DNA of 7,880 nt from Candidatus Desantisbacteria bacterium CG1_02_49_89 (lineage in GTDB: Bacteria > Desantisbacteria > UBA1551), in NCBI GenBank assembly GCA_001871075.1, contig MNUP01000029.1, positions 1 to 7,880 on the forward strand, given 5' to 3'. The notes under the pieces are model-generated. The model saw only the letters and a program-made list of their open reading frames with translations. It did not search any database and was not told the DNA's origin. Position 1 is the stretch's first letter, and every line of letters starts with the position of its first letter. The position numbers were made by a program, and so were the translations under genes. Below, piece after piece: positions 3,952 to 7,771 of this stretch.

Positions 3952-4211
3952 TTACACGTTACACGGTTAGTTATATGGTACTCTGCCTTTCCCCTTACAC
4001 GTGACACGTTACACGTTACACGGTTAGTTATATGGTACTCTGCCTTTCCCCTTACACGTGACACGTTACACGTTACACGTTACACGGTTATTATTATGGT
4101 ACTCTGCCTTTCCCCTTACACGTGACACGTGACACGTTACACGGTTAGTTATATGGTACTCTGCCTTTCCCCTTACACGTGACACGTTACACGTTACACG
4201 TTACACGGTTA
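3952..4211. repeat. Compound tandem array: TTACACG heptamers with 29-bp linkers
   Basis: Blocks of TTACACG heptamers (some TGACACG) alternate with a 29-bp linker containing GGTACTCTGCCTTTCCCC. Block sizes are 2, 4, 5, 4 and 5 units, so linkers recur at 57, 64 and 57 bp. Linkers start at 3966, 4023, 4087 and 4144, and a truncated fifth (GTTATTAT, 4208) runs into the purM stop codon. Linkers 3 and 5 share a GTTATTAT start and follow five heptamers; linkers 1, 2 and 4 start GTTAGTTA. This implies a 121-bp higher-order unit (3995-4115) repeated from 4116. The array fills almost the whole purM-purN gap, and no gene or promoter was seen in it. Confidence 0.92.
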
Positions 4212-5210
4212 TTATGCCAGCTCTACCGCCTGCTTCCCCTTCACCACGTCCCCGATCAGGTACGCCCTGACTGACCTTCCCGCGGCTCTCAGGACTGCCT
4301 TCGCCTGGGATCTCGGCACTACCAAAACCATCCCTATGCCCATGTTGAACGTGCGGAACATTTCTTTGTCGGGAAGGCCGCTTCTTTTCTGCACTTCTTT
4401 AAAGATCCCGGGCACAGGCCAGGTCCCCTTCTTTATTCTTATACCTGTGCCTTTGGGCAGGATCCTGGGCGGGTTCTCAAACAGGCCCCCGCCTGTTATG
4501 TGCGCGATGCCTTTTATCTTATATTTGGATATAAGCCTCATTATTATATCAGTGTAAATCCGTGTCGGTTCAAGCAGTTCTTCTTTGAATTTCTTCCATT
4601 CGCTCTTTTTGAAAAGCCTGCGCGTAAGCGAGAACCCGTTTGAGTGCAGGCCGCTGGACGCAAGCCCTATTACTTTATCGCCCGGCTTAATGTTCCTTCC
4701 GTCGATCATCTTTTCCCTTTCAACCACGCCCACAGCGAACCCCGCCATATCGTATTCGCCCTTCTGGTAGAAATCAGGCATTTCCGCGGTTTCTCCCCCG
4801 ATAAGCGCGCACCGCGAGATCCTGCAGCCCTTTACGATCCCCCTCATCGCTTCTTTCGCGTCCTTCAGGCTCAACTTCCCTGTGGCGAAATAATCCAGGA
4901 AGAAAAGCGGCTTCGCGCCGCAGCATATCAGGTCATTCACTGACATCGCGACAAGGTCAATGCCCACGGTATCGTGTTTCTTCAGTTCAAATGCGATCTT
5001 CAGCTTTGTGCCCACCCCGTCAGTGCAGGAAACAAGCACCGGTTCCTTGTAACCCGCAGGAAGGGCGAACGCGGCGTTGAACCCCCCGATGCCGGCAAGC
5101 ACTCCCTTTGCGCCGAAGGTGGTCTTTGCCGCGCCTGTTATGTAATCAACAAGCCTGTCCCCCGCATCTATGTCCACCCCGCTATCCCTGTAGGTTATCC
5201 GCCTGGCCAT
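4212..5210 (-). CDS. purM: Phosphoribosylformylglycinamidine cyclo-ligase (AIR synthetase)
   Basis: ATP-dependent ring closure of FGAM to 5-aminoimidazole ribotide, step 5 of purine synthesis; a cytosolic homodimer. With the start at 5210 the protein has 332 residues, close to the usual length. It begins MARRITYRDSGVDIDAGDRL, as family members do. Other blocks are GIGGFNAAFAL (40-50), SCTDGVGTKLKIA (61-73), LIGGETAEMPDFY (136-148), GLASSGLHSNGFS (182-194), HITGGGL (237-243) and a late MFRTFNMGIGM. A longer frame opens at 5237, but it would add nine unconserved residues encoded partly by an octamer repeat. AAGGAG sits just upstream of 5210 (separated by ACAGGG) and supports the shorter form. 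The gene is first of the purM-purN-purD cluster. Its stop codon is the last base pattern before the heptamer array. Confidence 0.96.
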   Translation of the reverse strand: MARRITYRDSGVDIDAGDRLVDYITGAAKTTFGAKGVLAGIGGFNAAFALPAGYKEPVLVSCTDGVGTKLKIAFELKKHDTVGIDLVAMSVNDLICCGAKPLFFLDYFATGKLSLKDAKEAMRGIVKGCRISRCALIGGETAEMPDFYQKGEYDMAGFAVGVVEREKMIDGRNIKPGDKVIGLASSGLHSNGFSLTRRLFKKSEWKKFKEELLEPTRIYTDIIMRLISKYKIKGIAHITGGGLFENPPRILPKGTGIRIKKGTWPVPGIFKEVQKRSGLPDKEMFRTFNMGIGMVLVVPRSQAKAVLRAAGRSVRAYLIGDVVKGKQAVELA

Positions 5211-5466: not shown

Positions 5467-5877
5467 TTATACCCAGACCACTTCAACTTCCTTCTCCACG
5501 CTCTTGAAGTCCCTGTCCCCCGTGACGATCTTCGCGCCCTTGGCTTTCGCGACCGCCACCACAAGGGCATCCCCCAGGCTCAGGGGGAACTGCACCCTGA
5601 TCTCTCCCGCCGCCATCAGGAGCTGCTCGTCTAAGCCCACGGATTCAATGGGAAGGTTCCTCACCAGCACCATTGTTTTCAACGCCTTATCCCTTCCTTC
5701 CTCTTTTAATACAATATGATATATTTCAGCCAGGTCCATTGATGTAAGGAATATAACCGCGTCGCGCTTCTGCGCCTTCTTGAGCATTTCCTCAATGAGC
5801 GCGGAACCGTTTTCGTTGTTCAGGTAGGCAAGCATCGCGCAGGTATCCAGGACGTATTTATCTTTCGGCGAATCCAT
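5467..5877 (-). CDS. PIN-domain ribonuclease, VapC-like toxin
   Basis: A 136-residue PIN-domain protein, the usual VapC toxin size. The acidic metal-binding residues are present: Asp11 in YVLDTCAMLAYL (8-19), Glu51 in SMDLAEIYH (46-54), Asp103 in SLGDALVVA (100-108) and Asp121 with Asp123 in VTGDRDF (118-124). Such proteins are Mg2+-dependent RNases, commonly cutting tRNA or rRNA, inhibited by a partner antitoxin. The AbrB-type gene upstream on the same strand is the obvious partner. The pair is unusually far apart because a palindromic element lies between them, whereas vapB and vapC normally touch or overlap. GGAGG lies 13 bases upstream of ATG 5877, a distant ribosome-binding site, so translation may be weak. 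The specific RNA target cannot be read from the sequence. Confidence 0.9.
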   Translation of the reverse strand: MDSPKDKYVLDTCAMLAYLNNENGSALIEEMLKKAQKRDAVIFLTSMDLAEIYHIVLKEEGRDKALKTMVLVRNLPIESVGLDEQLLMAAGEIRVQFPLSLGDALVVAVAKAKGAKIVTGDRDFKSVEKEVEVVWV

Positions 5878-5905
5878 CCTGCTTAATTTTCCTCCGCGTA
5901 TAATT

Positions 5906-5989
5906 TGTCATTGCGAGGAGTGTACCGACGAAGCAATCTCTGTTTTAACAACTAGATTGCCACACTCACTTCGTTCGTTCGCAATGACA
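5906..5989. mobile_element. MITE/REP-like palindromic element between antitoxin and toxin
   Basis: Terminal arms TGTCATTGCGA (5906-5916) and TCGCAATGACA (5979-5989) are perfect inverted repeats of 11 bp. A second, inner pair is GCAATCT (5933-5939) and AGATTGC (5954-5960). The interior is imperfectly palindromic with about 14 bases of loop. GTCATTGCGAG...GCAATCTC elements are recurrent intergenic palindromes in many unrelated bacterial genomes. There is no coding capacity, so any movement would need a transposase in trans. No unambiguous target duplication was seen; TAAT-like bases lie on the two sides. Confidence 0.75.
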
Positions 5990-6012
5990 TTATCGGGTTT
6001 TTTACGTTTGTA

Positions 6013-6255
6013 TCAGTACTCTTCTTTATACTTCTTCAATTCCTGCTTCAGCTCTGACATCACTTCTTTGGACGAACGCCTGAACTTCAAGAATCCCCTT
6101 GCTGACTGTATCGGGTCTTTGGCAAGCGGGACCAGCACGATGGCGTTGTCAACCTCAAGGATTTCCAGACTGTCGTGCGGCCCTATGTTATATTTCTTTC
6201 TTAAATTAGCAGGTATTACGATCTGACCTTTTGAAGAGACGTTTGCTATTGACAT
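6013..6255 (-). CDS. AbrB/SpoVT-family antitoxin, VapB-like
   Basis: A small swapped-hairpin DNA-binding protein. Residues in the 80-residue form include ANVSSKGQIVIPANLRKKY near the start and SLEILEVDNAIVLVPLA, the two halves of the AbrB/MazE-like beta fold. The basic and acidic C-terminal tail (FLKFRRSSKE to the end) would be the toxin-binding part in VapB-type antitoxins. A frame opens five codons earlier at 6270, but GGAGG is eight bases upstream of the ATG at 6255 and the earlier ATG has no good site, so the shorter form is preferred. It lies upstream of the PIN toxin on the same strand. As in other such modules, it probably neutralises the toxin and represses its own promoter, which is strong and surrounded by repeated TAGNACT-like words. 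Confidence 0.9.
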   Translation of the reverse strand: MSIANVSSKGQIVIPANLRKKYNIGPHDSLEILEVDNAIVLVPLAKDPIQSARGFLKFRRSSKEVMSELKQELKKYKEEY

Positions 6256-6271
6256 CCTACTTTCCTCCAAA

Positions 6272-6362
6272 AAGTACTACATAGCCTACTATTATAGCAC
6301 TTTTTCCTTAAAAGTCAATAAAAAAGTTAATTTAGCACTATTTTTAAGAAAAGGTAGTACTT
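6272..6362. promoter_or_regulatory. Operator candidates around the antitoxin promoter
   Basis: AAGTACTAC (6272-6280) and its exact reverse complement GTAGTACTT (6354-6362) bracket the promoter. TAGCACT occurs twice in direct orientation between them (6295-6301 and 6333-6339), with a related TAGCCTACT at 6283-6291. One TAGCACT overlaps the -10 box. Such an array fits cooperative binding and looping by an AbrB-type antitoxin. Binding itself is inferred. Confidence 0.55.
6291..6318 (-). promoter_or_regulatory. Sigma-70-type promoter of the toxin-antitoxin operon
   Basis: On the minus strand TTGACT (6313-6318) and a perfect TATAAT (6291-6296) are separated by 16 bases. Transcription would start near 6284, giving a leader of about 30 bases before ATG 6255. 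Confidence 0.8.
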
Positions 6363-6383
6363 ATATAAAATAATTAAAAGAGC

Positions 6384-6412
6384 TTGACTTTCTGCGTTTT
6401 GTGTGGTATAAT
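6384..6412 (+). promoter_or_regulatory. Sigma-70-type promoter of the AAA/DUF4143 gene
   Basis: TTGACT (6384-6389) and TATAAT (6407-6412) are 17 bases apart, an ideal spacing. A second TATAAT directly follows at 6413-6418. Transcription is expected near 6418-6420, at the edge of the first TGTCGG palindrome. The -35 box is 65 bases from that of the divergent antitoxin promoter. Confidence 0.85.
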
Positions 6413-6417
6413 TATAA

Positions 6418-6470
6418 TGTCGGTTATAAACCGACATTTTTATACTAAATTTGTCGGTTAATATCCGACA
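6418..6470 (+). promoter_or_regulatory. Paired TGTCGG...CCGACA palindromes in the AAA gene leader
   Basis: TGTCGGTTATAAACCGACA (6418-6436) is a perfect 8-bp-arm palindrome with a 3-base centre. TGTCGGTTAATATCCGACA (6452-6470) has 6-bp arms. Starts are 34 bp apart, about three helical turns, so proteins bound to both would face the same side. The first begins at the expected transcription start; the second ends just before the ribosome-binding site AAGGAG (6474-6479). The first is also an RNA hairpin followed by five T residues (6437-6441), so an attenuator is possible. The regulator is unknown; the adjacent ATPase, with its winged-helix segment, is a candidate. Confidence 0.75.
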
Positions 6471-6484
6471 CAAAAGGAGACAAT

Positions 6485-7672
6485 ATGGATCAGCAAACAA
6501 TATACCCCAGAAGGCTTGAAACCAGACTGCTTGAGGAAATGGGCTCGCAGAAAATAGTGGTGCTGACCGGGATGAGGCAGACAGGCAAAACAACCCTCAT
6601 GCGAAAGATCTTCAATTCGGTTAAAAGTGATAACAAGGTCTTCCTTGATCTGGAAAATCCTCTGAATCAGAAGGTTTTTGAAGAGGAGAATTTTGACAAT
6701 ATCCTGCGGAATTTAAAAGCAGTCAATATTGACCCGGCAGGCAAATGCTGCATCTTTCTTGACGAAATACAGTTGATGCCGGAGATCTCAAAAGCCGTCA
6801 AATACCTCTTTGACCGTTACAAGATCAAATTCTTTCTGACTGGTTCAAGCAGCTTCTACCTGAAAAACCTTTTCTCTGAATCTCTGTCAGGAAGAAAAGC
6901 GGTTTACGAACTCTTCCCTCTTGATTTTGAAGAATTTCTTATTTTTAAGGAATCGGCAAGGGAGCCTTGCGGCAGTTTATCGGAAGCGGCGGCAAAGAAG
7001 AATAAAATATCATATGGGCTCAAAGGAGGGCTTTTCAAGGAATATCTTGAATTCGGGGGTTTCCCCGGAGTCGTGTCTGAAAAACCGGGTAAAACGAAAA
7101 CGCTGGGGGACATCTTTACTTCTTATTTCGAAAAAGACGTAAAGTCTCTGGCGGATTTCAGGGAAATCAATAAATTGAGGGATATTGTCCTGCTGCTGGC
7201 AAACAGGGTGGGTTCAAAAATCGATATTACCAAAATTTCAAGCGAAATCGGTATTTCCCGGGAAACGGTTTACTCGTACCTGAACTTTCTTGAAAAAACC
7301 TATTTTATATTCCTGGTCCCGCCCTTTTCGGGAAGCCTGAACGGGGAAGTAAGGGGGGCGAAGAAAGTCTACTTTTGCGACATAGGCCTGCTGAATTACT
7401 TAGGCAAAATAAGCGAAGGCGCTGTCTTTGAAAACGCGGTATTCAATAACCTGAGGAAATACGGAAAAATAAATTATTACCAGAAACATAAGGGCCCTGA
7501 GATTGACTTTATTCTGGAAGAAAAAATCGCCCTGGAGATCAAGATGCACGGAGACACGTCAGATATAGTGAAACTGTCAAGGCATGCCGTAAACCTTAAA
7601 ATAAAAGAACATTATTTGGTCACTGGGAATTTCTTTGACCATCCCCGGGCAATACCCGCGCAGGACCTGTAA
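6485..7672 (+). CDS. AAA+ ATPase with C-terminal DUF4143 (PD-(D/E)xK-like)
   Basis: A 395-residue protein of the widespread predicted-ATPase family with AAA_14 and DUF4143 domains. It has Walker A GMRQTGKTT (29-37), Walker B CIFLDEIQ (89-96, D93/E94), a sensor-like FFLTGSSS (116-123) and the LSGR motif (134-137). A winged-helix-like segment follows: IDITKISSEIGISRETVYSY (246-265). The C-terminal half carries a nuclease-like signature with FEN (E316), PEIDFI (D341) and LEIK (E351, K353), all intact. Family function is unsettled; an accessory or mobile-element-linked ATPase role has been suggested by context. The start is fixed by AAGGAG five bases upstream. The gene diverges from the toxin-antitoxin operon and ends 20 bases before a strong terminator. 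Its coding sequence is visibly more A+T-rich than the pur genes, consistent with acquisition but not proof. Confidence 0.92.
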   Translation: MDQQTIYPRRLETRLLEEMGSQKIVVLTGMRQTGKTTLMRKIFNSVKSDNKVFLDLENPLNQKVFEEENFDNILRNLKAVNIDPAGKCCIFLDEIQLMPEISKAVKYLFDRYKIKFFLTGSSSFYLKNLFSESLSGRKAVYELFPLDFEEFLIFKESAREPCGSLSEAAAKKNKISYGLKGGLFKEYLEFGGFPGVVSEKPGKTKTLGDIFTSYFEKDVKSLADFREINKLRDIVLLLANRVGSKIDITKISSEIGISRETVYSYLNFLEKTYFIFLVPPFSGSLNGEVRGAKKVYFCDIGLLNYLGKISEGAVFENAVFNNLRKYGKINYYQKHKGPEIDFILEEKIALEIKMHGDTSDIVKLSRHAVNLKIKEHYLVTGNFFDHPRAIPAQDL

Positions 7673-7692: not shown

Positions 7693-7723
7693 AAAAAAAC
7701 CCGCTGGCTCTGGCGGGTTTTTC
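7693..7723. terminator. Bidirectional intrinsic terminator
   Basis: The stem AACCCGC (7698-7704) / GCGGGTT (7713-7719) has an 8-base loop. It is preceded by seven A residues in all and followed by five T residues (7718-7722), so it works in both directions. It ends the rightward AAA/DUF4143 transcript and the convergent receiver-domain transcript. Confidence 0.93.
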
Positions 7724-7771
7724 TTCTGAAATAACTTACAGCATAAAAAACTTCAAAGGACTTGTTTCATT

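Follow-up and report, generated by a model that had tools for sequence, protein, structure and literature searches.

The window (the whole 7,880-nucleotide stretch of Candidatus Desantisbacteria bacterium CG1_02_49_89 DNA that was analysed) contains a forward-strand gene for an ATPase with AAA_14 and DUF4143 domains, preceded by a predicted promoter and by two closely spaced palindromes that we treat below as putative operators. The features of this locus, in window coordinates, are as follows:

6384–6412, forward strand: predicted sigma-70-type promoter, TTGACT-17-TATAAT, with TG before the −10 element (11 of 12 consensus bases)
6418–6436, forward strand: putative operator 1, TGTCGGTTATAAACCGACA, approximately +1 to +18 of the predicted transcript
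6452–6470, forward strand: putative operator 2, TGTCGGTTAATATCCGACA, approximately +34 to +52 of the predicted transcript
6475–6479, forward strand: ribosome-binding site AGGAG, read directly from the sequence
6485–7672, forward strand: AAA_14/DUF4143 ATPase gene, 395 amino acids, PADLOC PDC-S01 (Pfam, PADLOC and AlphaFold2), with its ATG at 6485
7166–7384, forward strand: winged-helix part, residues 228–300, with predicted helices 228–240, 248–255 and 259–271 and a wing
7259–7297, forward strand: predicted recognition helix, residues 259–271, including R259 and E260 (the alignment columns most predictive of a shared operator)
7385–7669, forward strand: C-terminal PD-(D/E)XK-like domain with D341, E351 and K353 (motif GPEIDF...ALEIK, and secondary structure)
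7700–7724, forward strand: likely intrinsic terminator, CCCGC...GCGGGTTTTT, read directly and missing from the terminator scan list

Both palindromes have the form TGTCGG-N7-CCGACA and are 19 bp long, with a start-to-start distance of 34 bp, exactly as had been described in the original prediction. Operator 1 can be extended to perfect 10-bp arms (6416–6438), and operator 2 contains an inner mismatch (T7–T13) that limits its unbroken pairing to the six outer bases. Since 34 bp does not correspond to an integral number of helical turns, simple cooperation between proteins bound on the same face of the DNA is not implied. The further claims that the pair is too regular to be accidental and occurs nowhere else in the window were both borne out. 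A simple 4^-12 estimate gives approximately 5e-4 exact matches per window of such size, so that two within 34 bp are not a chance occurrence, and the 110-nt region upstream of the gene, with a palindrome score of 15.5, falls in the p ≤ 0.01 group by comparison with 200 dinucleotide shuffles. No further copy with up to two mismatches was found in the window, and no further exact copy in the whole 2.48-Mb genome. The statement that the two sites ‘exactly fill’ the leader is a fair one, as both are located between the promoter and the AGGAG sequence, although the transcription start is only predicted, from the promoter. The terminator downstream of the gene is consistent with a transcript that likely contains this single gene.

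Divergently oriented from the ATPase gene is a VapBC-type pair on the reverse strand, comprising a PIN-domain gene (5467–5877) and an AbrB/MazE-like gene (6013–6270), with several AGTACTA/AGCACTA-like repeats around the pair's own promoter (6260–6365). A long imperfect inverted repeat at 5905–5990 (TCATTGCGAGGAGTGTACCGACGAAGCAATCT ... AGATTGCCACACTCACTTCGTTCGTTCGCAATGACA) is probably a dispersed hairpin element, and several near-identical units of approximately 60–70 bp (TTACACGTGACACGTTACACG...GGTTAGTTATATGGTACTCTGCCTTTCCCC) are found at 3955–4215, between purN-like and purM-like genes.

Domain architecture of the ATPase

The protein scored above the gathering thresholds of both of its Pfam families (PF13173, AAA_14: 118 bits versus 27, E-value 3.6e-34; PF13635, DUF4143: 110.4 bits versus 28.1, E-value 9.1e-32), and the best of the PADLOC PDC-S01 models matched residues 8–352 (227 bits, E-value 6.8e-68). 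Its AlphaFold2 model (mean pLDDT 94) comprises an ATPase (residues ∼1–220), a winged helix (residues 228–300) and a C-terminal domain. The closest structural relatives of the ATPase and winged helix are two MNS/STAND-type proteins, PAB2304 (2qen; Z 17.7, 263 residues, 4.2 Å) and SSO1545 (2fna; Z 17.2, 260 residues, 3.6 Å), which align over residues 3–308 (Z 17); the next-best are plant NLR, CED-4 and Apaf-1-type STAND proteins. As modelled, the window protein is of the STAND/MNS type, with a P-loop ATPase followed by a winged helix in that fold. It differs from SSO1545 and PAB2304 in its additional C-terminal PD-(D/E)XK-like domain and in the palindromes at its promoter; we know of no operator for either of those proteins.

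The C-terminal domain is a predicted nuclease with intact PD-(D/E)XK-like active-site residues. D341 is invariant in 89 family sequences, and D341, E351 and K353 are all positioned on the expected strands of the predicted model. This assignment uses the motif and secondary structure only and makes no claim to a fold match, since the VIA-align list hardly covers residues beyond 328.

AAA/DUF4143 genes had originally been described as having no agreed function, a statement that needs updating: PADLOC lists the family as the defence candidate PDC-S01, which is reported to rank fourth in frequency among prokaryotic defence-type systems and to be without established function (PMC12988326). Phage defence is a suspected, candidate role of the family. 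PDC-S01 is described in PMC12988326 as a solitary ATPase + PD-(D/E)XK gene, as is the gene in the window. The available parts of the PDC-S01 accounts (PADLOC, PMC12988326 and PMC13356809) deal with prevalence and phylogeny, and we found no operator or regulation in them.

Palindromes and shared upstream sequence in DUF4143 genes

Palindromes were scored in the 110 nt before the start of each gene in a DUF4143 set (139 genes, later enlarged to 199), with p values from 200 dinucleotide shuffles and with 152 genes from 20 unselected stretches of the same genomes as controls. At p ≤ 0.05 a palindrome was present in 46% of the DUF4143 upstream regions versus 20% of controls, and at p ≤ 0.01 in 30% versus 7% (Fisher p 3e-7). 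The rate was near background at positions −110 to −220 and within coding segments. Among a further 21 plasmid-borne genes whose starts are annotated, 10 had a palindrome at p ≤ 0.05 and 6 at p ≤ 0.01. About half of the DUF4143 genes had no significant palindrome. Where both a significant palindrome and a clear promoter could be identified (31 genes), the palindrome centres clustered at −35 to −15 and at −5 to +5, which are classical places for repression. The palindrome sequences themselves are not the same in different genes, and even paralogues of the window genome have different ones. Judged from these sequence patterns, the results suggest that the feature common to the family is the possession by each DUF4143 gene of its own, gene-specific putative operator.

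Two variants of this arrangement were also observed. In L112, L121, L074, L131, L132, L034 and L098, a group with a distinct recognition helix, the dyad is replaced by non-palindromic repeats like TAACCCTGCTAAAATT (present twice in L112 and L121). In L256 and L265, the DUF4143 gene encodes a V-N recognition helix and is immediately preceded by a very long, near-perfect palindrome (47–60 nt).

The expectation that the motif would recur upstream of other AAA/DUF4143 genes failed in its exact form. TGTCGG-N7-CCGACA gave 13 matches in a collection of 84,980 genomes and none in viral contigs, and none of the 13 is upstream of a homologous gene; we therefore rejected the exact motif, and with it the twin arrangement, as a family signature. 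A relaxed version of the same expectation was partly upheld, in that the core TGTC-N11-GACA is present upstream of 3 of the 199 DUF4143 genes (the window gene and two homologues, L030 and L031) and absent from the other 196. The protein encoded by L030 is 64% identical to the window protein and belongs to a genome of the same order (site TGTCTAATATTACTTGACA); that encoded by L031 is 50% identical and belongs to a genome outside this phylum's two collection members (site TGTCGGTTTATAGTTGACA). All three proteins have the recognition-helix sequence RETVYSYL. In both homologues the right half-site of the core is the −35 box itself (TTGACA). The core in these genes thus overlaps an untranscribed element, indicating that it acts as DNA and not as leader RNA, and the shift of the element relative to the transcription start, with its sequence kept, likewise fits a DNA operator. 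Three further genes with R-E at positions 259–260 are without TGTC-N11-GACA, one of which (L075) has TGTC-N10-GACA. A second clade, comprising L058, L086, L032 and L189 (43–51% identity to the window protein), has a dyad of its own at the −35 box, ACAAATAGT-N3-ACTTTTTGT with variations.

Across the gene set, the sharing of near-upstream blocks became more frequent with increasing protein identity, from approximately 2% of pairs below 35% identity to 13% at 45–50%, 35% at 50–60% and 70% at 60–75%. Sharing remained at 1–7% both at 110–220 nt upstream and in the 110 nt after the stop codon, and Mantel permutation of the genes gave an observed value of 0.137 versus a maximum of 0.046 in 2000 permutations. 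As 102 of the 168 shared blocks extend into the open stretch that precedes the start codon used, misannotated N-terminal coding sequence was considered as their source, and the analysis was repeated upstream of the in-frame stop: the effect is smaller there but persists, with sharing in this strictly non-coding sequence rising from 1.2% to 18% and 27%, figures that represent a lower bound because many operators are close to the start. No conserved gene other than the ATPase was found up to 1.5 kb from the seven closest homologues, and neighbours also differ among the plasmid loci. The putative operator is conserved with the protein and not with its neighbours; given that the seven close loci have no neighbouring gene in common, the regulator carried along with it is most simply the ATPase itself.

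We then related individual residues to block sharing, using a CMH test on residue identity at each alignment column with overall identity controlled in bins. In the main analysis (199 genes, with a more accurate alignment than the first), columns 259 and 260 ranked first and second of 395 (z 7.1 and 5.9), and the doublet 259–260 was the best of 394 (z 8.1). For pairs at 36–42% identity, a block was common to 20 of 106 pairs matching at both positions versus 27 of 1106 matching at neither. These two residues begin the recognition helix. After collapsing of clades, columns 259 and 260 were again first and second at two of the cut-offs, and tenth and sixteenth at a third. When the analysis was limited to non-coding sequence, the top four columns at a sharing threshold of 13 were 232, 259, 286 and 260, which all belong to the winged helix (its first helix, the beginning of its recognition helix and its wing region); the exact ranks moved at stricter and laxer thresholds (259 dropping to 18 at 14.5), and the doublet was first at all three thresholds tried. 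Individual helix classes also go with particular half-sites: V-N with ATTTGC/TGCAAA (ATTTGC in 13 of 19, versus 39 of 199 overall), V-H with GTGCAA (4 of 4, versus 6 of 199 overall) and H-N with ACAAAT.

The residue signal is not phylogenetically independent: among 74 non-overlapping sister pairs, the association was weak (Fisher p 0.04), with a partial correlation of approximately zero after overall identity; a domain-level regression indicated that winged-helix identity predicts sharing no better than that of the ATPase or nuclease domains; and the winged helix did not stand out in the first column analysis, which used 139 genes and a faster alignment. Operator sharing is also correlated with residues 335–336 (window positions 7487–7492), immediately ahead of the nuclease motif, which suggests that the C-terminal domain may touch DNA as well.

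Proposed autoregulation and alternative explanations

We consider it probable (approximately 0.7) that the two palindromes serve as operators in an autoregulatory circuit private to this gene, in which the ATPase binds to and represses its own gene. A dedicated regulator, with autoregulation through the winged helix of the ATPase, had been put forward in the original prediction and is the best-supported reading, now on the basis of the core shared with homologues that have the same recognition helix. Counting against it, the best structural relatives are STAND ATPases, in which the winged helix often has a structural role and does not read DNA. In the proposed mechanism, the resting ATPase would bind its operators via the winged helix, using the helix that starts with RET (residues 259–261), and would do so as a symmetric unit, probably a symmetric pair. 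The bound protein would obstruct RNA polymerase at the start of the ATPase promoter, so that only little of a potentially toxic ATPase-nuclease is made, and the presence of two operators in the window gene could tighten that repression. A change in ATP state, or encounter with a trigger, would draw the protein off the operator, such that repression falls and more protein is made. Binding by the ATPase, its dimeric form, repression over activation, and derepression by a trigger are steps that we infer.

The sites might instead serve a separately encoded regulator, such as the AbrB-like protein (6013–6270), whose gene is divergently transcribed 215 bp from the ATPase gene, or a host factor; dyad operators are typical of many repressors. 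We regard this as unlikely. A conserved neighbour acting as the regulator was rejected because none is found at the seven close loci (and the neighbours at plasmid loci differ), and a global regulon was rejected because exact copies of the sites are absent from the rest of the 2.48-Mb genome. Furthermore, paralogues within the same genome have different operators, and between distant genomes the operators follow the sequence of the ATPase, a pattern that runs counter to control by a separate protein.

Hairpins in the leader mRNA could also be the functional form of the element, protecting the message, attenuating transcription or hiding the ribosome-binding site. The leader does fold unusually well as RNA (−24.2 kcal/mol, z −5.2), operator 1 together with a run of T residues scores as terminator-like, and the leader has a sub-threshold Rfam match to preQ1-II (RF01054). 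Any DNA dyad will fold as RNA, however, and the preQ1-II riboswitch was rejected on its score (35.5 bits versus a gathering cut-off of 47) and on the absence of most of the model's core, which the match skips. A leader RNA was itself rejected because the homologous sites in L030 and L031 overlap the untranscribed −35 box; many palindromes in the family are also centred upstream of the transcription start. An RNA element is accordingly very unlikely. That the sites are targets or protection sites of the nuclease domain, with no part in promoter control, is an explanation to which we give hardly any weight: the intact D341, E351 and K353 and the correlation at nearby columns 335–336 would fit it, but the palindromes are positioned at promoters and starts, the recognition-helix residues rank higher, and cleavage within the gene's own promoter would be self-damaging.

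Autorepression through palindromic operators is already known, as are separate repressors of defence islands. BrxR and RptR are examples of the latter, repressing phage-defence islands through palindromic or repeated operators (PMC9122601, PMC12255303). The window gene resembles these systems in having putative palindromic operators at the promoter of a candidate defence gene and, as proposed, a DNA-binding repressor; it differs in that BrxR and RptR are regulators only, with genes of their own next to those for defence, whereas here the effector is apparently the regulator. Toxin-antitoxin systems and the controller proteins of restriction-modification systems likewise place a potentially harmful gene under negative feedback via gene-specific operators. 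Unlike those, the window gene has no separate antitoxin or controller, and its operator would be read by an ATP-dependent switch protein. A family of this size made up of apparently self-repressing sensor-effector ATPase-nucleases, with private operators for each copy, was not found in the open-access literature searched.

An extension of autorepression to PDC-S01 as a whole (tens of thousands of genes) is possible but doubtful. One protein would then be sensor, effector and transcription factor, with a simple recognition-helix code setting its private operator; the operator would be the resting place of the armed protein, and an encounter with an invader would lead to its release, and thereby to higher expression and a freed nuclease. 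If PDC-S01 members do repress themselves through private operators, the operator would provide a ready reporter for the trigger of any member, the DNA bound by each copy would be predictable from its recognition helix, and the winged helix of a STAND-like ATPase would be a sequence-specific reader of DNA, with a bearing on how such proteins switch.

A DUF4143 gene of Thermus thermophilus, TT_RS11170 (pTT27), has a palindrome directly before its start codon:

L210:21075–21112, reverse strand: TGAATGA-N3-TCATTCA, TGAATGACTATCATTCA (second strain, L299:497–534)

The palindrome is kept in that other T. thermophilus strain, in which the sequence farther upstream differs. Judged from its domains and place, TT_RS11170 is probably TT_P0211, a DUF4143 gene that was up 6.6-fold in plasmid-bearing cells with Argonaute (PMC4406477), a rise that gives a hint that family members are inducible. 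Separately, genomes G132, G157, G357 and G043 each contain approximately 30–50 candidate DUF4143-type genes, which is a large number for what is supposed to be a defence gene.
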